DNA of 64,000 nucleotides, from assembly GCF_001463885.1 (NCBI RefSeq), contig NZ_BBWQ01000009.1, positions 62,001-126,000 on the forward strand. Direction: 5' to 3'. The translations under genes were made by a program, and so were the position numbers. The notes beneath the pieces are model-generated. The model was not told where the DNA came from and searched no databases. It saw only the letters and a program-made list of their open reading frames with translations. The first letter of the stretch is position 1; every line of letters starts with the position of its first letter. The DNA is from Aureimonas altamirensis. Its GTDB lineage: Bacteria > Pseudomonadota > Alphaproteobacteria > Rhizobiales > Rhizobiaceae. Below, piece by piece: positions 45,335 to 62,417 of this stretch.

Positions 45335-46360
45335 ATGAGCGAACCGTCCCTGATGCGGCGGGAAATCGACGAGGCGCCCGAGGCGGTGCGTCGTCTGCTG
45401 GACCTCTCTGGCGAAGCGATGCGCGCTGCCGGCAACCGCCTGCGACTCTTGAGCCCGCCCGTCGTCGCCACGATCGCACGGGGATCGTCCGACCACGCCG
45501 CAACCTACTTCAAATATGCAACCGAGATCGTGGCCGGCGTTCCCGTGGCCTCGCTGGGGCCATCCGTGGTTTCCGTATACGGCGCGGCGCTGAAGCTGCA
45601 GGGCTGCGCCGCCATCGCGGTTTCGCAGTCGGGGCGCAGCCCGGATATCGTTGCCTTGGCGAAAGCCGCGCGCGCCGGCGGCGGCGAAACGATAGCGCTC
45701 GTCAACGCCGAAGGCTCGCCGCTGGCCGATACGGCATCGGCCAGCGTGGCGCTGCAGGCCGGCCCGGAGAAAAGCGTGGCGGCCACCAAGAGCTTCATCG
45801 CCTCCGTGGCTGCGGCGCTTTGCATCCTGGCGGAGTGGCAGGGCGACGATGCGCTTCGGCAGGGCCTCCGGCGCCTGCCGGACGATCTCGACGCCGCACT
45901 GGAATGCCGCTGGGACGAGGCGGTTGACGCAGTCCGGGATGCAGGCTCGCTGTATACGCTTGGGCGCGGCCCTGGATTTGCGGTGGCGGCGGAAACCGCA
46001 CTTAAGTTCAAAGAGACGTGCATTGTGCATGCCGAGGCCTATTCGGGCGCCGAGTTGCTGCACGGTCCGGTTTCGCTGGTGGAAGGCGGCTTTCCCGTCT
46101 TCGCCTATGTCCCGCGCGACGCGGCGCATGCCAGCCTTGTGGATACGGCAAACCAGTTGCAGCAAAAGGGGGCAATGCTGTTCGTGGCGGGCGAGGGCGC
46201 GCCAGGGCGCCGCCTGCCCACGGCGCCGGCCGGGCACCCGCTGCTGGAGCCGCTGGTGATGCTGCTTTCGTTCTATGGCTTTGCCGAGGCGCTGTCCCGT
46301 GCGCGGGGGTTCAACCCCGATGTGCCGCGCGGTTTGAAGAAGGTTACGGAGACGATCTGA
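45335..46360 (+). CDS. SIS-domain glucosamine-6-phosphate deaminase/isomerase (NagB-II type)
   Basis: 341 residues with two SIS domains, equal to the isomerase half of GlmS without the glutaminase part. 'ATIARGSSDHAATYFKYATEIVAGVPVASLGPSVVSVYG' and 'AIAVSQSGRSPDIVALAKAARAGG' are the sugar-phosphate-binding loops; 'AAETALKFKETCIVHAEAYSGAELLHGPVSLVE' carries the catalytic Glu/Lys region. This is the NagB-II class found in alphaproteobacteria: GlcN-6-P to fructose-6-P plus ammonia. It overlaps the nagA start by one base (TGATG). Confidence 0.87.
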   Translation: MSEPSLMRREIDEAPEAVRRLLDLSGEAMRAAGNRLRLLSPPVVATIARGSSDHAATYFKYATEIVAGVPVASLGPSVVSVYGAALKLQGCAAIAVSQSGRSPDIVALAKAARAGGGETIALVNAEGSPLADTASASVALQAGPEKSVAATKSFIASVAAALCILAEWQGDDALRQGLRRLPDDLDAALECRWDEAVDAVRDAGSLYTLGRGPGFAVAAETALKFKETCIVHAEAYSGAELLHGPVSLVEGGFPVFAYVPRDAAHASLVDTANQLQQKGAMLFVAGEGAPGRRLPTAPAGHPLLEPLVMLLSFYGFAEALSRARGFNPDVPRGLKKVTETI

Positions 46361-47526
46361 TGGCGATCACCGCTTACCGGGGCGCAGACATCTTCGACGG
46401 GCAGGTTCGTCGCTCCGGCCATGCGCTTCTGGTCGATGAAGGCCGGGTATGGAAGATCCTGCCGCAGACGGATGTGCCGGGCGGCGTTGAGCTGGTGGAC
46501 CTGCCCGGCGGCCTGCTGGCGCCCGGCTTTATCGACGTGCAGGTGAATGGCGGTGGCGGCGTCCTTTTGAACGACCAGCCGACCGTGGCCGGTATACGCG
46601 CCATCTGCGAGGCACATGCACGCTTCGGCTCCACCGCGTTGATGCCCACCGTGATCACCGACCGGCCCGAGACCACTTTTGCAGCCATCGAGGCGGTTGG
46701 CGCCGCGATGGCCGAGGGCGTTGCCGGCTGCATCGGCATCCATGTCGAGGGGCCATTCCTGTCCACGGCCCGCAAGGGCGCGCACGACCCGGCGTTGATC
46801 CGGACCATGTCGGACGACGATCTGGCAAGATTCGTGGCAACGACGGTTCGGCCGATGATCCTGACGGTCGCCACCGAAAGCGTGACGCCGCAACAGATCA
46901 GCGTGCTGGCCGCGAACGGAATCACCGTCTCGATCGGCCATTCGGACGCCACCTTCGAGGATGCCAAACGGGCCTTCGATGCCGGCGCGCGGGGTGTCAC
47001 ACATCTCTTCAACGCCATGAGCCAGCTTGGCCATCGCAGCCCCGGGCTGGTCGGTGCTGCGCTCCAGACGGACGATATCTGGTGCGGCATCATCGCGGAT
47101 GGCTATCATGTGCATCCGGCCGCCATCGACGTTGCGCTGCGCGCCAAGCGGGGCCAGGGCACGATGATGGCGATTACCGATGCGATGCCGACCGTCGGGG
47201 TGGATGAAGGTGTTTTCGAGCTGAACGGGCGCACGGTCCGGCGCAGCAACGGACGCCTGACGCTGGATGACGGCACGTTGGCCGGGTCCGACCTGACAAT
47301 GATCGGCGCCGTGCAATATCTTGTCGGCACGATCGGCGTGCCGCTGGAAGAGGCGCTGCGCATGGCCTCGCTCTATCCCGCGACCTTCCTTGGGCTGCAG
47401 GGCGAGCGGGGCGCGCTGACCGAAGGTCTGCGTGCCGACATGGTCTGGATGGATACGGCGTTGAACCTTCGCGGCGTCTGGATCGGCGGTCGCAAACTGC
47501 CCCGCGCCGGGCAGGAAGACGCCTGA
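46360..47526 (+). CDS. nagA: N-acetylglucosamine-6-phosphate deacetylase
   Basis: 388 residues, amidohydrolase superfamily. 'LAPGFIDVQVNGGGGVLLND' (where many amidohydrolases have H-x-H, NagA has Q-N), 'GIHVEGPFLSTARKGAHDP' (Glu metal ligand), 'ITVSIGHSDATFEDAKRAFDAGARGVTHLFNAMSQLGHR' (two His), 'AITDAMPTVG' (catalytic Asp). Converts GlcNAc-6-P to GlcN-6-P and acetate, feeding the SIS-type deaminase just upstream. The start overlaps the previous stop as TGATG. Last gene of the operon. Confidence 0.93.
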   Translation: MAITAYRGADIFDGQVRRSGHALLVDEGRVWKILPQTDVPGGVELVDLPGGLLAPGFIDVQVNGGGGVLLNDQPTVAGIRAICEAHARFGSTALMPTVITDRPETTFAAIEAVGAAMAEGVAGCIGIHVEGPFLSTARKGAHDPALIRTMSDDDLARFVATTVRPMILTVATESVTPQQISVLAANGITVSIGHSDATFEDAKRAFDAGARGVTHLFNAMSQLGHRSPGLVGAALQTDDIWCGIIADGYHVHPAAIDVALRAKRGQGTMMAITDAMPTVGVDEGVFELNGRTVRRSNGRLTLDDGTLAGSDLTMIGAVQYLVGTIGVPLEEALRMASLYPATFLGLQGERGALTEGLRADMVWMDTALNLRGVWIGGRKLPRAGQEDA

Positions 47527-47540
47527 CCAGCCAGACCATT

Positions 47541-47556
47541 GCATGAACCGTCATGC
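47541..47556 (+). terminator. Weak hairpin after nagA
   Basis: GCATGA-ACCG-TCATGC, 6-bp perfect arms, 14 bases after the nagA stop and before the modA promoter region. No T-run; it may help end the operon. Confidence 0.25.
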
Positions 47557-47625
47557 GCCATCGCGGCTTGCACCCTCGATAGCAATAGGCAATATTTCCG
47601 TTCGGATATATCGGGTAGGGGCCTT

Positions 47626-48366
47626 ATGCATCGTGTGTTGATCGCAGTTCACGTCGTGGCCACGCTAACGGTTACGGCACAGGCCAAAACGGTGAATGTC
47701 GCGGTTGCGGCAAACTTCACGGATGCGGCAAACGAAATCGCCGCTGCCTTTGCCGATGCGACAGAGCACGATGCGGTGCTGTCCTTCGGCGCGACCGGCC
47801 AGTTCTACGCGCAGATCACGCAGGGTGCGCCATTCCAGGTGTTTCTGGCCGCAGATGACGAGCGTACGGCGCTGGCGGTACGGGAGGGCTACGGTGTCGA
47901 TGGCACGGTCTTCACCTATGCCATCGGCCAGTTGGTGCTTTATTCGGCCGAAGCGGGGAAGGTCACGGGACCGGAAACGCTGAGAGCCGGCAATTTCCAG
48001 CAGATCGCAATCGCCAATCCCGAGACCGCGCCCTATGGGGCCGCTGCGGTCGAGACGATGAAGGCGTTGGAGGTTTACGACAGCCTGACGTCGAAGATCG
48101 TTCAGGGGCAAAGCATCGGCCAGGCCTATCAGTTCGTGGAAACCGGCAACGCGGAAGTCGGTTTCGTAGCGCTTGGCCAGGTATCGCAGACGGATGCCGG
48201 CTCGCGCTGGGTGGTTCCGCAGGATCTCTACCGACCGATCAGGCAGGACGCCGTCCTTCTGAAGACGGGCGAGGATAATCCCGCCGCATTGGCCTTTCTC
48301 GACTTCCTGAAGGGCGAGGAAGCTGGCGCGATCATCCGCAAATTCGGCTACGCCATTGCCCGGTGA
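47626..48366 (+). CDS. modA: Molybdate-binding periplasmic protein
   Basis: 246 residues. Signal peptide 'MHRVLIAVHVVATLTVTAQA-KTV'. Mature protein: 'VNVAVAANFTDAANEIAAAF', 'VLSFGATGQFYAQITQGAPFQVFLAADDERT' and 'FVALGQVSQTDAGSRWVVPQDLYRPI', all normal ModA segments; the conserved serine/alanine oxyanion contacts ('AANF', 'GATGQ') are present. It delivers molybdate or tungstate to ModB. The ATG at 47626 follows a GGTAGGGGCC stretch. modB and modC follow in the same direction. Confidence 0.92.
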   Translation: MHRVLIAVHVVATLTVTAQAKTVNVAVAANFTDAANEIAAAFADATEHDAVLSFGATGQFYAQITQGAPFQVFLAADDERTALAVREGYGVDGTVFTYAIGQLVLYSAEAGKVTGPETLRAGNFQQIAIANPETAPYGAAAVETMKALEVYDSLTSKIVQGQSIGQAYQFVETGNAEVGFVALGQVSQTDAGSRWVVPQDLYRPIRQDAVLLKTGEDNPAALAFLDFLKGEEAGAIIRKFGYAIAR

Positions 48367-48442
48367 GCCGGTACTTCGACTGCGGGCACGCTCCGCATGG
48401 TATGCCGGCGTCAAATGAAAGGGGAAAGCACTGTCCAGCGAA

Positions 48443-49108
48443 TTGTGGTCGCCGATCAGGCTCACCCTCGAACTTGCCGCCATCTCGACGCTCATTCTGC
48501 TGATCGTCGGGACGCCGATCGCATGGTGGCTCGCATGGACCCGCTCGCGGTGGCGCGAGGTCGTGGCCACGATCGTCGCCCTGCCGCTGGTTCTGCCGCC
48601 GACCGTGCTCGGATTCTACCTGCTCGTCGCCCTGGGACCGGCCGGGCTGGGCGGGTGGTTTGGCGGTCTCGTCGGGCTGCGCACCTTTGCCTTCACCTTC
48701 GAGGGCCTGGTATTCGGCTCGGTCATCTATTCCATGCCCTTCGTGGTCCAACCCATTCGCAACTCTTTCGAGGCGGTCGGGCCGCGTCCGCTGGAGGTGG
48801 CGGCAACGCTGGGTGCCTCGCCATGGGACCGGTTCTTCACCATTGCGGTACCCCTGGCCGCCCCCGGCTTCCTGACGGCGGCGGTGCTGGGCTTCGCCCA
48901 CACGGTCGGAGAGTTCGGCGTCATCCTGATGATCGGCGGCAATATTCCGGGCGAGACGAAGGTTCTTTCGGTCGCGATCTACGACTTCGTCGAGACGCTG
49001 CGTTGGCGTGAAGCCCATATCCTGTCCGCAGGAATGCTCGCCTTCTCCTTCCTGGTAATCCTGTCCGTATCCCTCATTGCCCGACGCACCGGGCGGCGGG
49101 CCTATTGA
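48443..49108 (+). CDS. modB: Molybdate ABC transporter permease
   Basis: 221 residues with about 5 membrane segments. '[23 protein letters not shown]' and the EAA loop '[58 protein letters not shown]' are diagnostic for ModB. The listed TTG start has no ribosome site; a CTG four codons upstream (48431) has GGGG at proper spacing and gives a more usual N-terminus, so a rare CTG start is possible. The stop overlaps the modC start (TGATG). Confidence 0.9.
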
Positions 49109-50187
49109 TGGAGGAAAGGATAAGCGTAAGGCTGGCCGGGCGGCTTGGCAGCTTCGCGCTGAATGCCGATTTTGCCGTGCCCATGCAGGGGATCTCCGCG
49201 CTTTTCGGCCCCTCCGGCTGCGGCAAGACGACGATCCTGCGGTGCATTTCGGGGCTCAGTCGGCTTGCAGGCACGGTGCGAATCGGACCCGATATCTGGC
49301 AGGACGAGCGATCCTTCGTTCCGACGCACAGGCGGCCGATCGGCTATGTCTTCCAGGAAGCCAGCCTGTTTCAGCACCTCAGCGTGCGGCAGAACCTCGC
49401 TTACGGCGCACGGCGCTCGCAAGGCAGCTGGCAGGCGATCGCGTTCGACGAGGTGATCGAACTTCTTGGCCTGCCGACGCTGATGGACCGTGCGACGACG
49501 CATTTGTCGGGCGGCGAAAGGCAGCGTGTGTCGCTTGGGCGCGCCTTGCTGCGTCAGCCCCGGCTGCTGCTGATGGACGAGCCTCTGGCGGCGCTGGACA
49601 GGATGGCCAAGGAAGACATCCTTCCGTACTTCGAGGCGCTGCACGCCAACCTCAAAATTCCGATCATCCTGGTCACCCACGATATCTCGGAAGTCGAGCG
49701 CTTGGCAGACCACCTCGTGCTTTTGCAGGATGGCCGGGTCGTCTCTGCCGGGCCGCTGGAGGCTGCCTTGTCCGATCCGGCATCGCCGCTGGCGGCCAGA
49801 GCGGATTTTGCGTCGGTCCTGGTCGGGCGGGTGCACGCTCTCGAAGCCGATGGAATCGCGGTCGTCGATGTCGGCGGTGCCCGGGTCCGGACAATCGGCA
49901 AGGCGGTCGCCGTGGGCATGGCAGTGCGCGTGCGCATCGCGGCCGGTGACGTGTCCATCGTCAGGAAGCCGGCGGAAGAAACAAGCATCCTCAACGCGCT
50001 TCCGGCCACCATCGTCGGGATCGACCCGATCGGCGACTTCGAGCGCAGCATCCGGTTGCAGCTGCGGCCCGGTGGCGCCTTTATCCGGTCGCGCGTCACT
50101 GCGCACTCTGCCAGGATGTTGAACCTGACTGTCGGCGACGCGGTGTTCGCCCAGGTGAAGAGCGTGTCGATTGTCGCTTCACGCTGA
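49108..50187 (+). CDS. modC: Molybdate ABC transporter ATP-binding protein
   Basis: 359 residues. ATPase domain about 1-230: Walker A 'GPSGCGKTT', Q-loop 'GYVFQEASLFQHLSV', signature 'LSGGERQRVSLGRA', Walker B 'LLMDEPLAALDR', H-loop 'LVTHDISEVERLADHL'. A C-terminal TOBE (mop-like) domain (about 290-359, 'NALPATIVGIDPIG...SRVTAHSARMLNLTVGDAVFAQVKSV') binds oxyanions and tunes transport. The ATG at 49108 overlaps the modB stop; a TTG one codon earlier is less likely. Confidence 0.92.
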   Translation: MEERISVRLAGRLGSFALNADFAVPMQGISALFGPSGCGKTTILRCISGLSRLAGTVRIGPDIWQDERSFVPTHRRPIGYVFQEASLFQHLSVRQNLAYGARRSQGSWQAIAFDEVIELLGLPTLMDRATTHLSGGERQRVSLGRALLRQPRLLLMDEPLAALDRMAKEDILPYFEALHANLKIPIILVTHDISEVERLADHLVLLQDGRVVSAGPLEAALSDPASPLAARADFASVLVGRVHALEADGIAVVDVGGARVRTIGKAVAVGMAVRVRIAAGDVSIVRKPAEETSILNALPATIVGIDPIGDFERSIRLQLRPGGAFIRSRVTAHSARMLNLTVGDAVFAQVKSVSIVASR

Positions 50188-50260
50188 CCGCGTGCTAAAG
50201 CCTGAGGGCCCGGCGCAGCCCTTGGTGTCGGGCAGGTAACGACCATCGTGGAGCCGTCGC

Positions 50261-50599
50261 ATGGAGAGGTTCAGTCTCCGCATCTATTTTAACGGAAGGT
50301 CTCTCGGACCCGGCAAGGTGGAGTTGCTGGAGCGCATCGCGGAATACGGCTCTATCGCCGCGGCCGGGCGCTCCATGGGCATGTCCTACAAGCGGGCCTG
50401 GATGCTGGTTGCCGAAGCGGACGAGCTGTTCGGCAAGCCGACGGTCGAGAAGCAGCATGGCGGCCATCAGGGCGGCGGCGCACGCCTGTCGAAGCTGGGT
50501 GAAGCTATCGTGAGAGAGTATCGCACGGCGCAGGCACTGACGGAGCAGGCGATCGCACAGCCGATGCGAAACATCTTAAACGAGATACAGGCCGACTAG
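50261..50599 (+). CDS. ModE-type winged-helix regulator, DNA-binding domain only
   Basis: 112 residues. 'LRIYFNGRSLGPGKVELLERIAEYGSIAAAGRSMGMSYKRAWMLVAEADELFGKPTVEKQHGGHQGGGARLSKLGEAIVREY' is the N-terminal LysR-like domain of ModE. The two molybdate-binding mop domains of full ModE are absent, as in the short ModE/MopA-like regulators of many alphaproteobacteria. It probably represses modABC when molybdate is plentiful, perhaps sensing through a partner. 73 bases after modC, so part of the operon or closely linked. Confidence 0.85.
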   Translation: MERFSLRIYFNGRSLGPGKVELLERIAEYGSIAAAGRSMGMSYKRAWMLVAEADELFGKPTVEKQHGGHQGGGARLSKLGEAIVREYRTAQALTEQAIAQPMRNILNEIQAD

Positions 50600-50630
50600 G
50601 CCTGACCGATGCAGGGCTACGTATACAGAA

Positions 50631-50665
50631 CGGGGCCCGGGAGACATACAACGACCGAGGCCCCG
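50631..50665. terminator. Possible shared terminator, modE / DUF982
   Basis: CGGGGCC ... GGCCCCG, 7-bp perfect arms with a 21-base loop, between the convergent modE-like gene (stop 50599) and DUF982 gene (stop 50691). The loop is long and no T-run follows, so this is tentative. Confidence 0.3.
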
Positions 50666-50690
50666 AACGTTTAATGCGCGTGTTGAGGGG

Positions 50691-50996
50691 TCAGGCCCGG
50701 AACGGCTCGACGGCCGCAGGCGCGGATTTTGCAGCCAGGATCGTATCGTTCAGCGTCGGCATGAGAATGCCTGCGCCTTCAGCGAAGGAGATGAAGGCTT
50801 CGCGGGCCGTCTCGGTATCGCAGCGGCCGTTGAGGGCCTGCCGGCAAGTATCTATGCAGGCAAAATGGCCGGTCCGGCGGGTTCGATGCGGCCAGTCGAT
50901 CATCAGTTCCAAAGCGTGCCGCACATCGGAGACCTCTACCGGTACGCCGATACCAACCAGAACTGTCACCGGCTCGCGGAATTCACCGATTTTCAT
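50691..50996 (-). CDS. DUF982-domain protein
   Basis: 101 residues. 'FREPVTVLVGIGVPVEVSDVRHALELMIDWPHRTRRTGHFACIDTCRQALNGRCDTETAREAFISFAEGAGIL' matches the DUF982 pattern known mainly from rhizobia, where it is widespread and of unknown role (often on plasmids and near accessory regions). The ATG at 50996 has CGAGG 9 bases upstream; the reading frame continues upstream through an inverted repeat and a hairpin but without a better start. It marks the boundary between the mod operon and the AT-richer islet. Confidence 0.75.
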   Translation of the reverse strand: MKIGEFREPVTVLVGIGVPVEVSDVRHALELMIDWPHRTRRTGHFACIDTCRQALNGRCDTETAREAFISFAEGAGILMPTLNDTILAAKSAPAAVEPFRA

Positions 50997-51010
50997 GATA
51001 GCAAACCTCG

Positions 51011-51030
51011 TCACGTAAACTCTTACGTGA
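51011..51030. promoter_or_regulatory. Perfect inverted repeat upstream of DUF982 gene
   Basis: TCACGTAA-ACTC-TTACGTGA, 8-bp perfect arms, 14 bases before the DUF982 start codon, in the divergent gap to the nucleoid-associated-protein gene. It looks like an operator; which regulator binds is unknown. Confidence 0.5.
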
Positions 51031-51084
51031 GGGTTACGCTGCAGCACACAAATTGTTCCGGCGCCTTTGCGCTGCCGCGCCATT

Positions 51085-51110
51085 TCCTGCGCGCCTTTTG
51101 GCGCGCAGGA
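51085..51110. repeat. Strong GC hairpin in a divergent intergenic region
   Basis: TCCTGCGCGCC-TTTT-GGCGCGCAGGA, 11-bp perfect stem with a T4 loop. Both flanking genes point away from it, so it is not at the end of any annotated transcript. It could be part of an unannotated RNA, a 5' leader structure, or a leftover of the insertion that brought the neighbouring islet. Confidence 0.5.
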
Positions 51111-51239
51111 TGTTTGCAGACGATGCTCCCGACGCAGCGGATCGCCGCGATCCTTGCAACCACCACTTACGTTGTGCGAATCCATTCGTACGTATATCGA
51201 TGCTTACAAACTCAGTTCAACACATTGGTGGAAGCATCC

Positions 51240-52292
51240 ATGGGTTTCTTCACTGACGCGGAACTTGGCTCTCTGCGTATTGAAAATATGATACTGCACG
51301 TTGTTAGCGACGGCACCTTCGAGCCGCAGCGCTCCCGCATAGTGGAACATGCTGATTTCTTTCTTGACCGGATAAAGGATACCGACATGTCGCCGGTCTT
51401 TGAATTTGATCCCACGTCAGCAACTAAATACACGCTCGAGAGGATCGCATCCGGCGACGTTAGCTTTGAGTTGGGAGCACAAAAACTGTCCAGGGAATTT
51501 GCACGCTTTCACGGAAAATCGAGCAAGTCGGGCGCATTTTTCGTTTTTGCGCTTCGATCTGCAGCAACGAATGACCGTCTGTTCAGTCTCATAAAATACG
51601 ATTACCAACAGGTTATTGAGCAATCATCCGGAGAAGGCGGGGATCTGCTGAGGCTAATCCTTCAGGAATTCGTTGCCCAGAAGAAAGCCGTTCAAAAGTC
51701 GGCAATCATTCGTGTAACTGATGGGACTGCCATTCCGCTTATCTCGGCTACCGACCGAATTATGCCAGGTTTGGACATAGCCGACTACTTTGCTTCATTC
51801 CTGCACGTAAAGCGAAACCGTTCCGACGAGGAACTGACACAAACCGTCCGCGGGATTCTAAGAGATACACTTACAGAGGTCCGAAAATATCTTCCTGATG
51901 GTGGGGTTGCGCAGGCATTTCGACGTGCTCAAGCGATCCTTCGCGATCGCAGCCTTATAACTAGCGCAGCGATCTCGGAAGCCATCGTGGCAGCAGCAGA
52001 TGGCATCGGAAATGAGGCGCTTACGACAGACGTATTCACTCGAGTAAGCAGAAAGCTTAAGTCAGCTAAATTGGATGGTCTAGAGTTCCCGCCTGATAGA
52101 TCAATTCTGCAGAAACCAACTCTTCGGCGTCTTAAAACCACGGAGGGTGTCACCGTACTTTATCCCGACGACGTCGACCGGAGTGTGATCGAACGCCAGC
52201 GTCTGACCGGCGGCGGCGAGGTTATTACGATTAGAACAGCGAGACCAACGGAGGAAGATGTTGTCCGCGAGGGATCTAGGACAACGCATTGA
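51240..52292 (+). CDS. Nucleoid-associated protein-like (YejK/NdpA, NA37 family)
   Basis: 350 residues. I compared it by eye with E. coli YejK: N-terminal 'LRIENMILHVV' (IxxIxLH-type), middle 'SGAFFVFALRSAATNDRLFSLIKYDYQQVIEQ' (YejK GGFVLFCHYR...LLVAVL), 'LDIADYFASFLHVKR' (ADFFMDFLG), C-terminal 'FPPDRSILQKPTLRRL' and 'GGEVITIRTARPTEED'. YejK binds DNA and RNA in the nucleoid; copies in accessory regions are associated with defence and mobile elements. The gene is visibly more AT-rich and uses codons unlike its neighbours, a sign of transfer. It overlaps the next gene by 35 bases. ATG at 51240 has GGAAG upstream. The family call is moderately sure. Confidence 0.6.
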   Translation: MGFFTDAELGSLRIENMILHVVSDGTFEPQRSRIVEHADFFLDRIKDTDMSPVFEFDPTSATKYTLERIASGDVSFELGAQKLSREFARFHGKSSKSGAFFVFALRSAATNDRLFSLIKYDYQQVIEQSSGEGGDLLRLILQEFVAQKKAVQKSAIIRVTDGTAIPLISATDRIMPGLDIADYFASFLHVKRNRSDEELTQTVRGILRDTLTEVRKYLPDGGVAQAFRRAQAILRDRSLITSAAISEAIVAAADGIGNEALTTDVFTRVSRKLKSAKLDGLEFPPDRSILQKPTLRRLKTTEGVTVLYPDDVDRSVIERQRLTGGGEVITIRTARPTEEDVVREGSRTTH

Positions 52293-53601
52293 CGAACTTG
52301 CTTTCCGCGGGGCCTTTATCCGCGAAGGTGAGCACTCGGTCAATATTTCGAATCTCGCTGCGTCTGATGCGCGTGAGCTTGCTAATCTGTGCCGATCGGA
52401 TGACATGAGTTGTTCGATTTCAGATGAGGCTGGAACCCGATGGGGAGTTGACGATCTTGAAGAAGCGCTTGAGCCGTTCAGGATCATTATTACAAAATCG
52501 TCCACTGATAGTCTCATTCTGCAGGTGCTGACCGAACAAGGCTTCCGCGATCTACTTATCGATTCCGCTGTTACGAAACGAGTTTGGTGGATAGCGGGGC
52601 TCGGGGCACCTATAAGGACCTTCGAACGAGTATATCTTCCATGGGGAAGGATCGCGCAACCTTTCGATGAGATTGAAACTAAGAACCCACGATACCTAGT
52701 TCGCGAGTACACTGAAGACAGGATTGTTCCGTCAAACGTAGGTAGGTGGATTCTGCGCAATCCCGACATGGACCTTGGCGTATCCGATCGCTACCGAAAC
52801 GCATGGGCGGAAGCAGCAACCATGGCCCTCGCGTCATCTCTTCCAAATGAGATCGATGCAGAGTCCGGAGCATTGAGGTTTCGAGGGCCGCCTAGGTTAA
52901 TTCTTGAGAAGCCTTCGACCGAAGATTTGTCCGTATTCGCCGCAGGGCAGGGGTTTGATGAGCTTCAAAAGGCAGCGAACTGGGTGTTCGAGAGTGAACG
53001 GGAAACCGAAACGAGGCACCTTTTGCTCGCCTCGGAAATCGCGAGATCGGCAACTGCTACGAGATCAGCCACTGCTTTCTTGCTTGATGAATTGAAGACG
53101 GCTGTCGAGGGAGCACGGATAGCCTACGAGATGCATCTCTCGTCAATGGGTGCTGAAACCATCAAGTCGCTAGCGGAACTTCGCAAGGCTGTAACAGAAG
53201 AGACTGGGAAGGTCACGGAGGCAACACGCCAGACCTCGGCAGCGGTGGCAAGCGCGCTTGCAGTCGGACTGGGCCTTCTGGCTGCGAAGGTAACCACTGC
53301 GGTCAGCAGTATCCTAACTGCCGGTTTGATGGCCGTTGCCGTCGTGTACGTTCTCATGGTGATCGTAACAGGGTGGGTATTCGTCTCGCTTCAGCGCGAG
53401 GCACGCGCAAAATGGAAGGAGAGATTGTATAGATTCATTCCTGGTGATGACTACAAGGAGTTGGTGACGGACCCGACGGAGCGTTCAGAGCTTGCTTTCA
53501 AGATCGCCTGCATTCTTGGCGGTGGCTCGGTCATCGCGTTGGCCATCGTTGTTGTATTCCTAATTTCGGTTCCCGCTTCAGTTCCGCTTCCGCGGCAATA
53601 G
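52258..53601 (+). CDS. Unknown protein with C-terminal membrane anchor, partner of NA37-like protein
   Basis: 447 residues. I do not recognise a family. Residues about 1-300 are soluble and mixed alpha/beta, ending in a helical, charged stretch (about 235-325, 'RETETRHLLLASEIARS', 'LAELRKAVTEETGKVTEATRQTS') that could form a coiled coil. Three hydrophobic segments follow at about 328-350, 356-380 and 417-440, with a basic cytosolic loop ('REARAKWKERLYRFIPGDDYKEL') between. The start lies inside the NA37-like gene (35-base overlap) behind GGAGG, so both are made together. A DNA-binding sensor with a membrane partner is a layout seen in abortive-infection systems such as Kiwa (different families); this is inference. 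Confidence 0.6.
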   Translation: MLSARDLGQRIDELAFRGAFIREGEHSVNISNLAASDARELANLCRSDDMSCSISDEAGTRWGVDDLEEALEPFRIIITKSSTDSLILQVLTEQGFRDLLIDSAVTKRVWWIAGLGAPIRTFERVYLPWGRIAQPFDEIETKNPRYLVREYTEDRIVPSNVGRWILRNPDMDLGVSDRYRNAWAEAATMALASSLPNEIDAESGALRFRGPPRLILEKPSTEDLSVFAAGQGFDELQKAANWVFESERETETRHLLLASEIARSATATRSATAFLLDELKTAVEGARIAYEMHLSSMGAETIKSLAELRKAVTEETGKVTEATRQTSAAVASALAVGLGLLAAKVTTAVSSILTAGLMAVAVVYVLMVIVTGWVFVSLQREARAKWKERLYRFIPGDDYKELVTDPTERSELAFKIACILGGGSVIALAIVVVFLISVPASVPLPRQ

Positions 53602-54165
53602 TTCGGGCCAGAGGTCAATTCTCAACGTCGTGGAACATCCTCATAGGTTGAGCAAAGGCCGAATTTACGATCATGTTATGGTTCCAATCCACTAGCTCTA
53701 GCCGTCTTATGAGCTAACGACGTCGGACGTCAGTGCTCCTCTTCCAAGTGATTTGGCTTGCGCTCTGCATTTCAGCTTAAGCAAAGGTTGCGGTGTAGAT
53801 GCCCACCGGCGCTTCTAGATGATGCGTTCACTGACTGAGATAGGTGCGTTTTCGAGAACCAGGTCAAGCTTTTGGAACCGCTGCATTCTCCAACGCAATG
53901 GTGGCCCGTCTGCCGGCGAACCCAGGTCCGCCAGTTCAAAATCAAATTGCCCGGCGCGCGTGGTTGACGACTTGACCGCTTCGGCAGCGCTTAAAGCAAC
54001 CTAATTCCGAGATTCCGCCTCAGAACTTCGTCCCGCTATTAGATTCCCTGTGCCAAAGCTCCAGGCGCTGCTAACGCCTGGAGTGCGCGGGCAAGCCACG
54101 CTTAATACGTCATTGGCGAATGTCGAGCCTAGTGGCGCGCCAAACGTAGATCAGCGGGGCCGGTA
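53602..54165. other. 564-base gap without a convincing gene
   Basis: Between the islet and nrdJ. AT-richer than the chromosome, with several short frames but none with a ribosome site or family resemblance. The right end holds a hairpin (54059-54083). It could be the decayed edge of the inserted islet. Confidence 0.6.
54059..54083 (-). terminator. Hairpin downstream of nrdJ
   Basis: CTCCAGGCG-CTGCTAA-CGCCTGGAG, 9-bp perfect arms, 83 bases past the nrdJ stop. On the minus strand it is followed by CTTTGG, a weak T-run, so it is a plausible nrdJ terminator. Confidence 0.5.
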
Positions 54166-57100
54166 TCAGGAGCAGCCGCTCGTCGAGCCGCAGGTATCGC
54201 ACTTCAGGCAGGTTCCGTTGCGAACCATGGTGAAGTTGTTGCACTCGGAGCAGCTTTCGCCGGTATAGCCCTTCATCAAAGCCTCTGCCCGGCGCTCGGC
54301 CATCTTGCTGCCGGTCACGTTGGCCACGTCACGCGCCGTAGCGCGCCCTTCGACCGGCTGATCGAACAGACCCTGTGCCGGCGACGTATCGGCAACTGGG
54401 GCAGGCAGGTCCAGAGGCGCGGCTTCGAAATCGCGCTTGAACGCCGTTGCCGCCGCCGAACCGCCACCCAACACGACAGGCCGCGTGCCGGCCGTCGGCT
54501 GGATGGTCCGGGCTGCCGTCGGCTGGACATTCGCAGGCCGCGGGGAAGCCGTCGCCGAGCCAGCCGGCTCGCCGGACGAGACGACCCGGAACTTGCCCGT
54601 GTTGCCACGGACCATGCCGTGCGACACCGGCAGGTTCGCCGGGCGATCACCTTCGACACCACGGCCAACCGTGGACGATGCCGCGTCGTCCGGCTGGACA
54701 TGCGCAAGGTCGTGGCGACCCAGATAGGAAACGGCCAGTTCGCGGAACACATAGTCCAGGATGGACGTCGCGTTCTTGATCAACTCGTTGCCCTGCACCA
54801 TGCCCGCCGGCTCGAAGCGCGTGAAGGTAAAGGCGTCGACATACTCTTCCAGCGGCACACCGAACTGCAGGCCAAGGGAGATGGCGATGGCAAAATTGTT
54901 CATCATCGCCCGGAAGGCAGCGCCCTCCTTGTGCATGTCGATGAAGATTTCACCGATCCGCCCATCGTCGAACTCGCCAGTGCGCAGGTACACCTTGTGT
55001 CCGCCGACGATGGCCTTCTGGGTATAGCCCTTGCGCCGGTTCGGCAGCTTCTCGCGCTCGCGCACGACGCGCTCCACGATCCGCTCGACGATCCGTTCCG
55101 CCACTTCTGCCGCGCGCGCCGGGGCAGGTGCGGCCAGGAGAGCCTCCGTCGCCTCGGCGATCACGTCTTCCTCTTCGTCCTCATCGGCGATCAGCGACGA
55201 GTTCAGCGGCTGCGACAGCTTGGAGCCATCGCGGTACAGCGCGTTGGCCTTGAGCGCCAGCTTCCACGACAGCATGTAGGCCGCGGCGCAATCTTCCACC
55301 GTGGCGTCGTTCGGCATGTTGATCGTCTTGGAGATGGCGCCCGAAATGAAGGGCTGCGCCGCCGCCATCATGCGGATATGGCTTTCCACAGACAAAGCGC
55401 GCTTGCCGATGCGGCCGCAGGGGTTGGCGCAGTCGAAGACGGGCAGATGCTCATCCTTGATGAAAGGAGCGCCTTCCAGCGTCATCGCGCCGCAAACGTG
55501 GATGTTTGCAGCCTCGATATCCTTCCGTGAATAGCCCAGGAACGGCAGCAGCTCGAAGCTGAAATCGTTCAGCTGCTCGTCGCTGATGCCGAGCGTATCG
55601 CGGCAGAAATCCTCGCCCAACGTCCACTTGTTGAAGGCGAACTTGATGTCGAACGCGCTCTTGAGGCCGATGTTCAGAGCCTCGATCTGCGCATCGCCGA
55701 ACCCCTTTGCGCGGAGCGATCCGGGGTTGATCGCCGGCGCCTGATCGAGATTGCCATGGCCGACGGCATAGGCCTCGATCTCGGCAATCTGGCTTTCCTT
55801 GTAGCCAAGCGTCCGCAGGGCGTCGGGCACGGCGCGGTTGATGATCTTGAAGTAGCCGCCGCCGGCCAGCTTCTTGAACTTCACCAGCGCGAAATCCGGC
55901 TCGATACCGGTGGTATCGCAATCCATGACCAGGCCGATCGTGCCCGTGGGTGCAATCACGGAAACCTGTGCGTTGCGGAAGCCATTCTTTTGGCCAAGCT
56001 CCAACGCCTCGTTCCAGACGGCCTTGGCGCGCGACGAAAGCTTGCGATCCTTCAGCGACGCATGGTCCAGCGGCACAGGGTCGGTCGACAGCCCTTCATA
56101 GCCGTTGGCAATGCCCTGCGCGGCACGGGTGTGGTTGCGGATGACGCGCAGCATGCCGTCGGCGTTGCGCTCATAATCCGGGAAGGCGCCCAGAACCCCC
56201 GCCATCTCGGCCGAGGTCTTGTAGGACTGGCCGGTCATGATCGCGGTGATGGCGGCGCAGATCGCGCGGCCCTCGGCCGACGAATAGGGAATACCGGCCG
56301 TCATCAGGAGGCCGCCGATATTAGCAAAGCCGAGACCCAGCGTACGATAGTCGTAGCTGCGCTGCGCGATCTCCCGCGACGGGAACTGCGCCATCAGCAC
56401 CGAGATTTCGAGGACGATGGTCCACAGACGCGTCGCATGCTCGAAATTGACGATATCGAAGTCGCCGTTCGGCTTGCGGAACTGGATCAGGTTCAACGAC
56501 GCCAGGTTGCAGGCCGTATCGTCGAGGAACATGTACTCCGAGCAGGGGTTGGATGCGCGGATCTCGCCGGCTGCGGCGCAGGTATGCCAGTCGTTGATCG
56601 TCGTATGGTACTGGATGCCCGGATCGGCCGAAGCCCATGCGGCATAGCCGATCTGGTCCCACAGCTCACGGGCCTTGAGGCTCTTGGTCACCTTGCCCGA
56701 CGTGCGGCCGCGCAGATCCCAGGTGCCATCCGTCTCGACGGCCTCCAAGAAGGCGTCGGTGACGCGCACCGAATTGTTGGAGTTCTGGCCCGAGACCGTC
56801 AGGTACGCTTCGGAATCCCAATCCGTGTCGTAGACGGGAAATTCGATGTCGGTATAGCCTTGGCGGGCAAACTGGATGACGCGCTTGACGTAGTTTTCAG
56901 GCACCTGGGCCTTCTTGGCGTCGCGCACCGCGCGCTTGAGCGCCGGGTTCTTCATCGGCTCGAAACAATCGCCTTCCGGGCCTTCGCAGTTCACGCAGGC
57001 CGACAGGATCGCCTTGAGATGGCGCGACACGATCCGCGATCCGGTTACCAGCGCGGCGACCTTCTCTTCCTCGCGGACCTTCCACTGGATGTAAGCCTCG

Positions 57101-58565: not shown

Positions 58566-58655
58566 GGAGAGGTGGCCGAGTGGTCGAAGGCGCTCCCCTG
58601 CTAAGGGAGTATACCGGAGACGGTATCGTGGGTTCGAATCCCATCCTCTCCGCCA
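58566..58655 (+). tRNA. tRNA-Ser (anticodon GCU)
   Basis: 90 nt including an encoded CCA. Acceptor stem GGAGAGG pairs with CCTCTCC; the anticodon arm CTCCC/GGGAG (58593-58609) holds loop CTGCTAA with anticodon GCT at 58600-58602; a long variable arm (ACCGGAGACGGT-like) marks it as class II; T-loop GGTTCGAATCC is standard. It reads AGC/AGU serine codons. A phage integrase gene begins beyond it and points at it, so its 3' end is the likely attachment site. Confidence 0.97.
58630..58655 (+). other. Likely prophage attachment site (attL) in tRNA-Ser 3' end
   Basis: Tyrosine integrases commonly use the 3' part of a tRNA gene from the T-loop to CCA. The integrase gene here ends 110 bases further right, with phage genes beyond. 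The duplicate of this segment at the far end of the element lies outside the window, so the exact core cannot be defined. Confidence 0.55.
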
Positions 58656-58765
58656 CGAAAGCCCGGAAATGAAGGCTTTCCATCGATTCGATTACTGATT
58701 ACCGCTCGGGTCGATTGACGCGAAGTGACGAGACATTACGCGAACATCCTTGCGATTTCCGACCA

Positions 58766-59839
58766 TCACCGCAATATTCTCGCAAGCTTTGATCTGCCTT
58801 TGTTCTCGCTTCCGTCAAAACGCCATCCACGTTTGCGGGCTGCATCGCCGAGACCAGGTTGCGCCAGCTTCACGTAACGCTGCCACTCTTCCGAGTTCCA
58901 TCCACCTTCATCCTTCAAGCGCATCACGTCTTTGGTTTGGGCGTAGAACCACGTCGCCCATGAATGCCGCGCTGTGTGCGGTGTATAATGGTTCGCATCG
59001 AGGCCGATCTTTGCAACGTGGTGGGCCCAGAATGAAAGAGGGTTCCCTCGGTTCTCTCCGGTCCTATCGATGTACGGCTTGCCGTCATATCGGCGAAACA
59101 GGGGGCCGCGCTCACCGATATTCGGAAGCTGCGAAAGAGAAGCTACGACGCGGGGAATAAGGGTCACCGTCCGCTGATCATCGTTCTTCGGGTCTCGGAT
59201 AACTGCGTACCGTCCCTCCAGGGAAACATCCTGATACGCGTCCAGGGCCATGGCCTCAGATATCCGAACACCCTGTCCGAATAGGAAGGTTACAAGGCAG
59301 GCGCCCCATAGGGATCGGTATCGTCCGGCGAGAACGGACGCTATCAGGTTGTCAGCCTGCTCTGGCCGGAAGAAGAACGTTCGACGCCCGCCACCTGCCG
59401 GCCTTGAGACGACAGGCTTGACGCCTTGGGATGCAAGCACGGAAAGAACCGGAGTGAAGAACTGCCGACGAATGGTGGCTGGTTGGGCAGATGGGTATGC
59501 CTTCAAGGCAGCTTCGTCTATTTCCCGCTGGCCGATTTTATCAATTGGCAGACCCTCGAGGTGCGCGATTGGCTTCGCAAGAAAGCGAGCCTCTCCACCC
59601 CCCTGTGCATATAGGTGCGCTGCTATTTCGAACGGGATCGACGGTTCTCGTCCGGTGTGGTTTTGCTCGGCGACTTCGTTCTCGATTTGCCGCTTGATGC
59701 TTTCTGCCTGCTTGGCATCCCTCGTGCGAGTAGACCGGCGTATTTCAATGTTGTGAGGCTTACCACCGCGCCAGACGATGACTGAGCCGTGGACGTAGAA
59801 GATTCCGGTTTTAGGGTTTGGGGTGCACTGGAGGGGCAC
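58766..59839 (-). CDS. Tyrosine recombinase, phage integrase
   Basis: 357 residues. N-terminal SAM-like core-binding domain (about 60-150) and catalytic domain (about 165-340): first Arg in 'FGQGVRISEAMAL', His-x-x-Arg in 'TPHTARHSW', a Trp instead of the third His ('GGWNSEE'), and the nucleophile Tyr in 'EWQRYVKLAQ'. The GTG start at 59839 has AAAGG 8 bases upstream. It integrates and excises the element at the adjacent tRNA-Ser gene. The first 217 bases overlap the preceding DNA-binding-protein gene in another frame, a long overlap. Confidence 0.9.
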   Translation of the reverse strand: MPLQCTPNPKTGIFYVHGSVIVWRGGKPHNIEIRRSTRTRDAKQAESIKRQIENEVAEQNHTGREPSIPFEIAAHLYAQGGGEARFLAKPIAHLEGLPIDKIGQREIDEAALKAYPSAQPATIRRQFFTPVLSVLASQGVKPVVSRPAGGGRRTFFFRPEQADNLIASVLAGRYRSLWGACLVTFLFGQGVRISEAMALDAYQDVSLEGRYAVIRDPKNDDQRTVTLIPRVVASLSQLPNIGERGPLFRRYDGKPYIDRTGENRGNPLSFWAHHVAKIGLDANHYTPHTARHSWATWFYAQTKDVMRLKDEGGWNSEEWQRYVKLAQPGLGDAARKRGWRFDGSENKGRSKLARILR

Positions 59840-60027
59840 TCTACCATCCTTTCGCCGAGTAGGCGGACCTGGTCAGGCCTGAGCTTCACCGATCGGCCGA
59901 CACGAACATAAGGGACACCATGCCGGCGAAGTAGCTCGCGAACATAGCGCTTTGGATTTTGGGACTCTGAGCTGGTAATGCCCAGAATGGAAGCTGCGTC
60001 TTCCAACGACATGGGCTGGTCAATCAT
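59623..60027 (-). CDS. HTH DNA-binding protein, possible excisionase
   Basis: 134 residues. Residues about 1-60 look like an excisionase/MerR-type helix-turn-helix with wing: 'MSLEDAASILGITSSESQNPKRYVRELLRRHGVPYVRVGRSVKLRPDQVRLL'. The rest is a Ser/Lys/Arg-rich, low-complexity tail that exists only where the gene overlaps the integrase gene (217 bases). The start has a very strong AAGGAGGTGGGGG site. Next to an integrase, an excision-directing role is likely. The tail could be real or mere read-through into the overlapping frame. Confidence 0.65.
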   Translation of the reverse strand: MIDQPMSLEDAASILGITSSESQNPKRYVRELLRRHGVPYVRVGRSVKLRPDQVRLLGERMVECPSSAPQTLKPESSTSTAQSSSGAVVSLTTLKYAGLLARGMPSRQKASSGKSRTKSPSKTTPDENRRSRSK

Positions 60028-60076
60028 CCCCCACCTCCTTCTCTGCGGCATCGATGGGGTTGGGTTAGGGCTTGCA

Positions 60077-60424
60077 TCAGGCATTCTCCCTGACGGCACG
60101 CAGGCCATAGGGCCCCTGTTCGTAACGGGTGCCTGGTGGCGCCTTGCGAATGGTTGAGCGCTTCTTGACCCCGAGACGACTGGCTTCGAGCCTTTGCGCC
60201 TTCCGGATCATCTTGACGTCGAGTGTTGTCTTCCCTCGGTGGCAGACCCGGCAAAGCCACTGTCCGTTCTCGATCTCACTCTCGCCGCCGAGTTCCACGG
60301 GAATGATGTGATCGGCTTCGCCTTCGCCGATCTTCAACACGGCGTGGCACTTCTCGCAGATGCCATCGGCGCGCTTGGCTATCGCCTTACGCTGCTTGGT
60401 GCTGAAGTTGTGCGCCCGAACCAT
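60077..60424 (-). CDS. HNH endonuclease
   Basis: 115 residues. 'ICEKCHAVL' and 'WLCRVCHRGKT' give the four zinc cysteines, and 'GEADHIIPVELGGESEIENGQWL' holds the catalytic D-H and the Asn of HNH. Size and layout are those of phage HNH nucleases (group of HK97 gp74), which act in DNA packaging or recombination, or behave as selfish nickases. The start overlaps the stop of the RecT-like gene by one base. Confidence 0.85.
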   Translation of the reverse strand: MVRAHNFSTKQRKAIAKRADGICEKCHAVLKIGEGEADHIIPVELGGESEIENGQWLCRVCHRGKTTLDVKMIRKAQRLEASRLGVKKRSTIRKAPPGTRYEQGPYGLRAVRENA

Positions 60425-61494
60425 CAGCCGGCAACCTCCGGCTGGATGAGGCCTTCCTCAACACCGATCTCGTAAGCGAAGTGGGTGACGGCCGAGGCGA
60501 CGTCAGTTTCGCCTTTGCTGATCGCCTGGGCTGTCTTGAATACCTGTTGGGCTACAGCGACCGCTTCGGGAGACAGCTGAGCAAGGTCGCCCTTCCAGCG
60601 GGTGTGCGACTTGAGGAGACGATCCTTGATAAGGCCCGCATCAGCCTCCTGGATGACAATCGCGAGCATGCCGCGGGCGTAATCTGCCAACCGCGCCTTT
60701 GTGTCGTCGTCGAAGGCAGGGCCGGTTTCTTCCTCAGCAGGATCAGCAGATCTGCTGTCGTCGCCTTCCGGAACCTGCGACGTATCCATCGTATCCGCAC
60801 CAAGCTCACCATCGATGAACCCGTGGTCAAATCCTTCGCGAGGGCCAACGCTCTCCTGAGGCTTGGCGATACGTGTGGCAAAGCTCGAGCGCTCCGGCTG
60901 AGCCGGCGTGACGTCGCGGACACCTTCGAGTTCATCACGGTCGTAGACGCCGAGAATGACTTCGGGAAAGTGGCGGCGGGCGCCGGCGCGGATGGAGTAG
61001 TAGCCGAGCTGCTGATCCGGGTCCGACTTCCACAGCGGAGAGTTCTTCGTCGTGATCGCGCTGAACCGCGGGCTCTCGTAGACGTGGACAGAACCGTCCA
61101 GTGCCTCGAACGTCACTCGACAGCGCCGATCACCGTCCTGGCCCTCGTACTCGATCTGGGGGCGCCGCTTGAGACCGGCGCGAGTGTTGATGACGGCCGC
61201 GATCAGCTGCGCCTCGTAAGCCATCTGATCGCCGACCTTGTAGGACTTCTGCGCGACCGAGAAGGGATCCATTTCCCACTTCATCGCCTGCATGGTGACG
61301 GCAAGGCACGCTCCGGCGTTTCCGCGAAGGTGCTTCGGAATGGCAATGTCGGCCCGAGACATAACCTCAGCAAAGCGAACGATGTCACCGAGGCTCTGCG
61401 GTGTTAGATGTGATCCCCCGCCATCCGAAGCGAAGCGGACGTCGTTGATGGGCGTGCGGACCTCGGACGGGTCTCGAAGTGCAAGGTTGCTCAT
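60424..61494 (-). CDS. RecT-family ssDNA-annealing protein
   Basis: 356 residues. The N-terminal 180 residues resemble the RecT/YqaK core: 'LTPQSLGDIVRFAEVMSRADIAIPKHLRGNAGACLAVTMQAMKWEMDPFSVAQKSYKVGDQMAYEAQLIAAVINTRAGL', then 'DPDQQLGYYSIRAGARRHFPEVILGVYDRDEL'. The C-terminal half is acidic and ends in a helical tail (about 255-356). It promotes strand annealing in phage recombination together with the exonuclease encoded just upstream (4-base overlap). The start at 61494 is an ATG with AAGGAGGCAGC upstream; a longer frame overlaps the exonuclease and was rejected. Confidence 0.82.
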   Translation of the reverse strand: MSNLALRDPSEVRTPINDVRFASDGGGSHLTPQSLGDIVRFAEVMSRADIAIPKHLRGNAGACLAVTMQAMKWEMDPFSVAQKSYKVGDQMAYEAQLIAAVINTRAGLKRRPQIEYEGQDGDRRCRVTFEALDGSVHVYESPRFSAITTKNSPLWKSDPDQQLGYYSIRAGARRHFPEVILGVYDRDELEGVRDVTPAQPERSSFATRIAKPQESVGPREGFDHGFIDGELGADTMDTSQVPEGDDSRSADPAEEETGPAFDDDTKARLADYARGMLAIVIQEADAGLIKDRLLKSHTRWKGDLAQLSPEAVAVAQQVFKTAQAISKGETDVASAVTHFAYEIGVEEGLIQPEVAG

Positions 61495-62417
61495 GCTGCC
61501 TCCTTGGCCGCGAGCGTCGTTTCCGTGCGCGTCCGGGCCCATTGCGGGATGTCGATGTTGAGAACTGAGGGGTGGAAGCCGTCGTAGCCGGGCCATACAC
61601 CTTGCTTCCGGCATTCCTTGACGGTTTGCAGTGCGGCGCGCGCCTGCCTTTCTCCGAGGTCCAGATCCTGGGCCCGGACTTCGAAGAACCGGACTTCGTA
61701 CGGCGCTGACTTCTCCAGGAAGGCGAGCACGAACGAGCCGAACGGCAGACCCAGTTCTCGCCAGACCATGCGGACAACGGCGCCCTGAACGTGGTAGCCG
61801 GAACTGAAGATGGTCTTCGACAGGCTGTCGTCGTCGACGGACGCCGCCGTCTTGAGATCGACGAAGTCGCCTCCGTCGTTCGGGATGACGTCCGGCCGCG
61901 CCTTCATCCAGATGTCGTCGAACTTGGCGAACATGGACCGCTCGATACGGCCGTTCAGCGCACCGGCCTGCACGATGGGGTGAGCTGCGAGGCTGTCCCG
62001 CATCCGGCGAATGTCGTCGATCTGGGACGGCAGGATGACAGTGCGTCCGGCCTTTGCCTGATCGGCCATCCAATCCTTGCATTCGGTCCGGTTGCCTTGC
62101 CACGGTTTGCCTGCGATCGAAGCGGGGCGAACCGCGAAGTGCTGCGCAAAGCCGGATTCACCCAACAGTAGGTGATGGGCGGCCTTGCCGAAGTTCAGCG
62201 CTTCGGTTGCGTCACGTTCGATTCGCTCCGGGTTGTACGGGCTGTGGACCCAGTAGGCAGACGGGCGGTCATCGACCTGGCGGATGCCAGACGACGAAAT
62301 GCCAAAGCTGTCGAGTAGGTCTACGTCGTGGTGATAAGTCTCAATCGGCACGCCGGCGTAGATACCCGGTTCGACGATCTGCTGGCCGTTCCAAACGGTT
62401 TCCTTGACCGTCTTCAT
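61491..62417 (-). CDS. Phage exonuclease, PD-(D/E)XK (DUF3799/RecE-like)
   Basis: 308 residues. N-terminal 'EPGIYAGVPIETYHHDVDLLDSFGISSSGIRQV' and 'LNFGKAAHHLLLGE' (His of the nuclease core) are typical of the RecE/DUF3799 group; the active site is 'RPDVIPNDGGDFVDLKTAA' (D...D-x-K) followed by 'YHVQGAVVRMV' (the Q/Y motif). It digests one strand from DNA ends to supply single strands for the RecT-like partner. The stop overlaps the partner's start and the start overlaps the upstream small gene's stop, each by 4 bases. Confidence 0.85.
   Translation of the reverse strand: MKTVKETVWNGQQIVEPGIYAGVPIETYHHDVDLLDSFGISSSGIRQVDDRPSAYWVHSPYNPERIERDATEALNFGKAAHHLLLGESGFAQHFAVRPASIAGKPWQGNRTECKDWMADQAKAGRTVILPSQIDDIRRMRDSLAAHPIVQAGALNGRIERSMFAKFDDIWMKARPDVIPNDGGDFVDLKTAASVDDDSLSKTIFSSGYHVQGAVVRMVWRELGLPFGSFVLAFLEKSAPYEVRFFEVRAQDLDLGERQARAALQTVKECRKQGVWPGYDGFHPSVLNIDIPQWARTRTETTLAAKEAA

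Follow-up and report, generated by a model that had tools for sequence, protein, structure and literature searches.

A two-gene islet lies next to nrdJ in the stretch of Aureimonas altamirensis DNA analysed here, a window of 64,000 nucleotides (nt). Its genes, which we call A and B, encode a divergent relative of the NA37/YejK nucleoid-associated proteins and a likely membrane protein. The first-pass annotation had placed two overlapping genes here with a base composition unlike that of their neighbours, and both observations hold. Protein A has 350 amino acids (aa) counted from the ATG at 51240 (the mechanical open reading frame, ORF, starts further upstream). The islet measures 3.0 kb and contains essentially only these two genes. 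Its GC (guanine plus cytosine) content is low, with 50.8% in A and 53.6% in B; just one of 610 segments of 3009 nt has a lower value than the islet, and that segment itself overlaps the islet. The features are as follows.

51149..54157, no strand: AT-rich islet, absent from the congener L073 (blastn of the flanks; GC 52.5% against 64.0% for the whole window)
51240..52292, forward strand: gene A, NA37/YejK-like, 350 aa
51240..51818, forward strand: residues 1-193 of A, alpha/beta part (H20, K119, Q152, K153 and D172 kept in 32/32 family members)
52258..53601, forward strand: gene B, membrane partner, 447 aa, of no known family (four libraries, AlphaFold2 model, Protein Data Bank (PDB) comparison)
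52258..52292, forward strand: A/B overlap of 35 nt, with putative translational coupling (overlap of 4-50 nt in 30/32 pairs)
53068..53232, forward strand: residues 271-325 of B, long pre-membrane helix with an L-R-K motif (R309 and K310 kept in 32/32)
53233..53295, forward strand: putative membrane segment 1 of B, about residues 326-346 (part of the hydrophobic stretch 325-380; helix break at 347-350; limits by eye)
53311..53385, forward strand: membrane segment 2 of B, about residues 352-376 (hydropathy maximum within 325-380; helix 351-390; limits by eye)
53497..53571, forward strand: membrane segment 3 of B, about residues 414-438 (hydropathy 410-447; helix 396-437; limits by eye)

The two genes are a conserved pair. 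The first-pass annotation had made its reading of the locus depend on co-occurrence in other genomes, and profile searches found A followed by B in 32 of the 34 distinct places that hold either gene (overlapping loci were counted once, and L007, with an A and a B in pieces over several frames, is counted within the 32). Both exceptions look damaged. L013 has an A split over two frames, with no B found beside it, and in L012 (7950-8975), a Klebsiella plasmid, A is missing and what is left of B stands near IS26. This remnant is 99.7% identical to the B of an Enterobacter plasmid. Of the eight places found by the B search alone, seven also hold A. The overlap of 4-50 nt has two exceptions among the pairs, one with 125 nt at the ORF level and one with a 55-nt gap by annotation; A and B may thus be translationally coupled. 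Moreover, the two proteins have diverged in step: the distance matrices of A and B correlate with r = 0.926, a value reached by 0 of 2000 permutations (32 pairs, including the identical L010 and L046 and excluding L028, a near-copy of L026, and the damaged L007, L012 and L013).

The pair is also a mobile unit. It occurs in gammaproteobacteria as well as alphaproteobacteria, on plasmids and in a phage; within the groups searched it is rare. The A profile matched 2/385 genomes of the class, 5/397 of the order and 4/398 of the phylum (the source genome included each time), together with 1/325 genomes of another order, one already found; the B profile matched 5/199 genomes of the family, again including its own. 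The copies of Jiella, Gluconobacter and a Sphingomonadales metagenome-assembled genome are 85-91% identical to one another in A and 75-81% in B, and two species of the window's own genus have an A only 23-24% identical to the window A. Copies were found on 11 plasmid records, 8 viral contigs, a prophage and a phage (7 of the 11 plasmid records with A were fetched, and of the 8 with B all but H16 were examined). In Thiobacimonas phage vB_ThpS-P1 both A and B match the family profiles.

Escherichia coli carries the pair as well. Among 5426 complete genomes, 32 were matched by a query taken from a viral contig. When the E. coli pair itself was the query of a DNA search, 29 of the 5426 proved to hold all of it, one of them (H58, NZ_CM146015.1) with an ISKpn26 insertion; further matches are two divergent versions and one remnant covering 19%. 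The count is therefore at least 31/5426, as a DNA search would miss more divergent copies. In strains S42 and THO-008 it is part of a prophage that carries Rac genes (recE, racR, intR or racC); its neighbours there are the Q antiterminator on one side and a Hok/Gef gene on the other, both in the opposite orientation to it. In CFSAN018748 and PapM-32-1 (L103 and L104) a second version directly follows an integrase adjoining tRNA-Leu, and after it come a retron-type HNH gene and an N-6 DNA methylase; in PapM-32-1 a reverse transcriptase gene stands about 11 kb further on. The A and B proteins of L101 (the Rac pair), L103 and L104 match the family profiles.

At the window's own locus the comparison with congeners is informative. 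Of 21 genomes of the genus searched, the closest is L073, whose NrdJ C-terminus is 97% identical. There the sequences corresponding to window positions 46000-51148 and 54158-55197 are contiguous, with about 15 nt between them (blastn). The interval 51149-54157 is thus either an insertion here or a loss in L073. Different DNA occupies the place in L074 (6240-10964, reverse complement), and in L075 and L076 no match to the mod side adjoins nrdJ. What stands here thus changes from one examined congener to the next, which suggests that the chromosome is variable on the 3' side of nrdJ in this genus. An integrase, a direct repeat and a target duplication were looked for, and none was seen.

Protein A is a divergent NA37/YejK protein. 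The first-pass annotation had likened it to YejK along its length and expected a match to PF04245. The resemblance is real but remote. The window protein itself has no PF04245 match (and its own genome gives 0 matches at an expectation value, E, of 10 or less), whereas 9/12 rows of the A family alignment match at E<=1, the best at 7.2e-15. Against YejK the A profile matches significantly over about 300 columns. E. coli YejK is also the only clear structural match of A, with the fold shared along most of the length at an identity of only 13-15%. The A family and YejK have H20, F56, F76 and G98 in common. The polar residues K119, Q152, K153 and D172, by contrast, are invariant in the A subfamily and not conserved in 14 YejK proteins; they form a possible binding or catalytic site. 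A further differs from YejK/NdpA in being mobile and in being paired with B at the A/B places surveyed. Its residues 1-193 also give weak structural matches to a kinetochore chain, to KwaB and to RdgC.

Protein B belongs to no family that we could find, as the first-pass annotation had said. Four libraries gave nothing above cut-off: no match above the curated cut-offs of Pfam or NCBIfam, none in PADLOC, and in the remaining library scans only weak matches with E of 0.07 or more. With 12 B rows as queries, each Pfam family that turned up was matched by 3 rows at most (best E 0.0052). L026 is missing from the two family batches of 12 loci each. Structure prediction, which had been proposed for B, gave an AlphaFold2 model with a pLDDT (predicted local distance difference test) of 83.5, in which an alpha/beta N-terminal part is followed by helices 271-346, 351-390 and 396-437 with a break at 347-350. 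B thus has a soluble part, amounting to about 320 residues, and a long helix. The three C-terminal membrane segments are likely: by hydropathy, 12 of 18 B proteins have three or more hydrophobic segments and 5 have two, and in window B the hydrophobic residues 325-380 form a single merged stretch, which has room for two segments, with a further stretch at 410-447. The short first loop and a basic stretch after segment 2 suggest an N-terminus inside and a C-terminus outside, although the whole loop is charge-balanced (8 K/R, 8 D/E), which leaves this topology a suggestion. W242, E251, R309, K310 and W386 are kept in 32/32 B proteins.

Several copies sit next to DISARM, Septu, Thoeris or retron-type genes; others are near transfer genes or ordinary genes. 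At L002 the pair adjoins PtuA (Septu, 1.4e-211, placed by coordinates) and is near DrmD (DISARM, 1e-297), and at L006 ThsA is near it (2e-188). In Methylocystis, phospholipase-D and DUF1156 genes annotated as anti-phage are close by. Among 10 neighbours picked for a closer look, the ThsA of L006 alone matched; the remaining 9, which came from other loci, gave nothing at E<=1e-15. Weak matches to the PtuA model PDLC00288 mean little, since it matches in 8/14 well-known control genomes too, and only the full-length match at L002 was used.

Scans of neighbouring ORFs with PADLOC, in two batches of 12 loci each, matched 138 models for 95 ORFs and 45 models for 103 ORFs, the latter including type I restriction, GajB and SoFic. 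A control of 113 ORFs, from one distant region in each of 11 of the 12 batch-2 genomes (all but G630), matched 6 models. These counts mislead, because one protein matches many redundant models: the control models mad3, mad8, PycC, AriA, ZorD and MzaA matched one to four proteins each, and near the pair each of 25 among the 45 models hit a single protein. In our judgement the two sets differ in kind, with restriction and Gabija genes near the pair and generic-looking models in the control. The survey of defence islands that had been suggested therefore gave a divided answer. Individual islands are clear (L002, L006, L103, L104 and Methylocystis); a general enrichment is not established. As for the pair itself, the hidden Markov models of PADLOC 2.0.0 matched window A and window B to 0 families each at E<=1.

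How does the pair compare with known two-gene systems? The first-pass annotation had pointed to Kiwa, in which, according to one report (PMC12904381), KwaA is in the membrane and KwaB binds DNA without cutting it. The KwaB family PF16162 is not among the 16 Pfam families matched by 12 A rows; hhalign of A against KwaB gave probabilities of 1.4 and 0.6, and the B profile against five KwaA candidates (picked by position and hydropathy) gave 0.2. By the sequence tests made, of A against KwaB and of B against these candidates, neither protein is thus a homologue of its Kiwa counterpart. Moreover, B has 447 aa and the KwaA candidates 184-221, and the membrane gene comes first in Kiwa and second here. 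Lambda RexA-RexB (PMC11077077) likewise combines a DNA-binding protein with an inner-membrane partner on a temperate phage; B, with its length and large soluble part, is not a small four-helix membrane protein of the RexB type. A recent E. coli study, DefensePredictor (2026, PMC13092281), includes a YejK nucleoid-associated domain among those newly validated in defence and describes a unit with this domain that gave protection against phage. The likeness lies in a YejK-type domain and the E. coli host. The E. coli pair is a candidate for this unit and may be identical with it.

The best explanation, in our view, and one to which we give about even confidence, is that A and B form a two-subunit mobile anti-phage system that excludes phage in a Kiwa-like way. 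A, a cytosolic protein with the NA37/YejK fold, would bind DNA, and its probable form would be a dimeric clamp. The C-terminal helices of B would anchor it in the inner membrane, leaving a large cytosolic part and the long helix to hold or sense A. When a phage infects, A would engage its DNA at the membrane, as it comes in or replicates, and A and B together would block entry, replication or expression of that DNA. Kiwa is also a two-subunit exclusion design, and RexAB may work alike. Behind this proposal stand the conserved adjacency, correlated divergence, mobility, some defence neighbourhoods, the fold of A and the hydrophobic C-terminus of B; the phage protection given by the YejK-domain unit of DefensePredictor also speaks for it. 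The earlier suggestion of a DNA-binding sensor with a membrane partner is to this extent supported, as a role predicted from sequence.

Several results weigh against it. DNA binding by A cannot be assumed, because the NA37 protein NdpA2 of the integrative and conjugative element (ICE) PAPI-1 by itself gave no shift of the promoter tested (PMC8565334) and acts in conjugative-element regulation. The structural match of A to KwaB is no better than that to major histocompatibility complex class I chains. B has no match at E<=0.001 among PDB structures and so no known fold, and 5 of the 18 B proteins have only two hydrophobic segments. Counted by matched proteins, the surroundings of the pair do not clearly exceed the control, which leaves enrichment by count unproven. 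Finally, the window copy has no defence gene or integrase within a few kb as judged by eye, its neighbours being without a scan.

The strongest rival, which we consider possible but rather unlikely, makes B an effector. A would sense phage DNA or nucleoprotein and switch on B, which by opening or disturbing the inner membrane would halt growth of the infected cell, after the logic of RexA-RexB. Sequence does not decide between membrane disruption by B and a block of phage DNA, and we slightly favour the latter.

Still less probable is that the pair serves plasmids, integrative elements and prophages as a regulator or maintenance module and is no defence system. NdpA2 acts with TprA to control and enhance transfer of its element (PMC8565334), copies of the pair occur on conjugative plasmids, some of them near transfer genes, and the comparison with control neighbourhoods falls short of proving, by count, that defence genes are enriched. 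Yet the window copy is a lone chromosomal islet, A is tied to B and not to a regulator, in the E. coli Rac prophage the pair runs opposite to both flanking genes, and defence neighbours are clear in L002, L006, L009, L103 and L104. That a housekeeping nucleoid protein gene, as the relation of A to YejK might suggest, stands beside an unrelated membrane gene by chance is scarcely credible given adjacency in 32/34 places, a patchy distribution, and K119, Q152, K153 and D172 invariant in the A family and not conserved in the 14 YejK proteins.

The exclusion system proposed above would tie the poorly understood YejK/NA37 family to phage defence through a defined mobile two-gene unit, of which E. 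coli versions exist, and would supply a membrane partner without a known fold. A broader reading, speculative and in our estimate doubtful, is that the pair represents a third independent case in which a shared ancient DNA-clamp fold (YejK, RdgC, RexA and KwaB, and also kinetochore proteins) was combined with a differing inner-membrane partner against phage DNA. If so, housekeeping nucleoid proteins of the YejK type would belong to one superfamily with several of the DNA binders that act against phage, and B would be the first member of a new family of membrane partners. Should the weak structural links to KwaB and to RdgC/RexA hold, they would unite several anti-phage DNA-binding proteins, now kept apart, in a single superfamily.

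Beyond nrdJ, as seen from the islet, positions 58566-62417 hold a tRNA-Ser followed by ORFs that by eye resemble a tyrosine integrase, an excisionase-type protein, RecT and a phage exonuclease; this is probably the start of a prophage.
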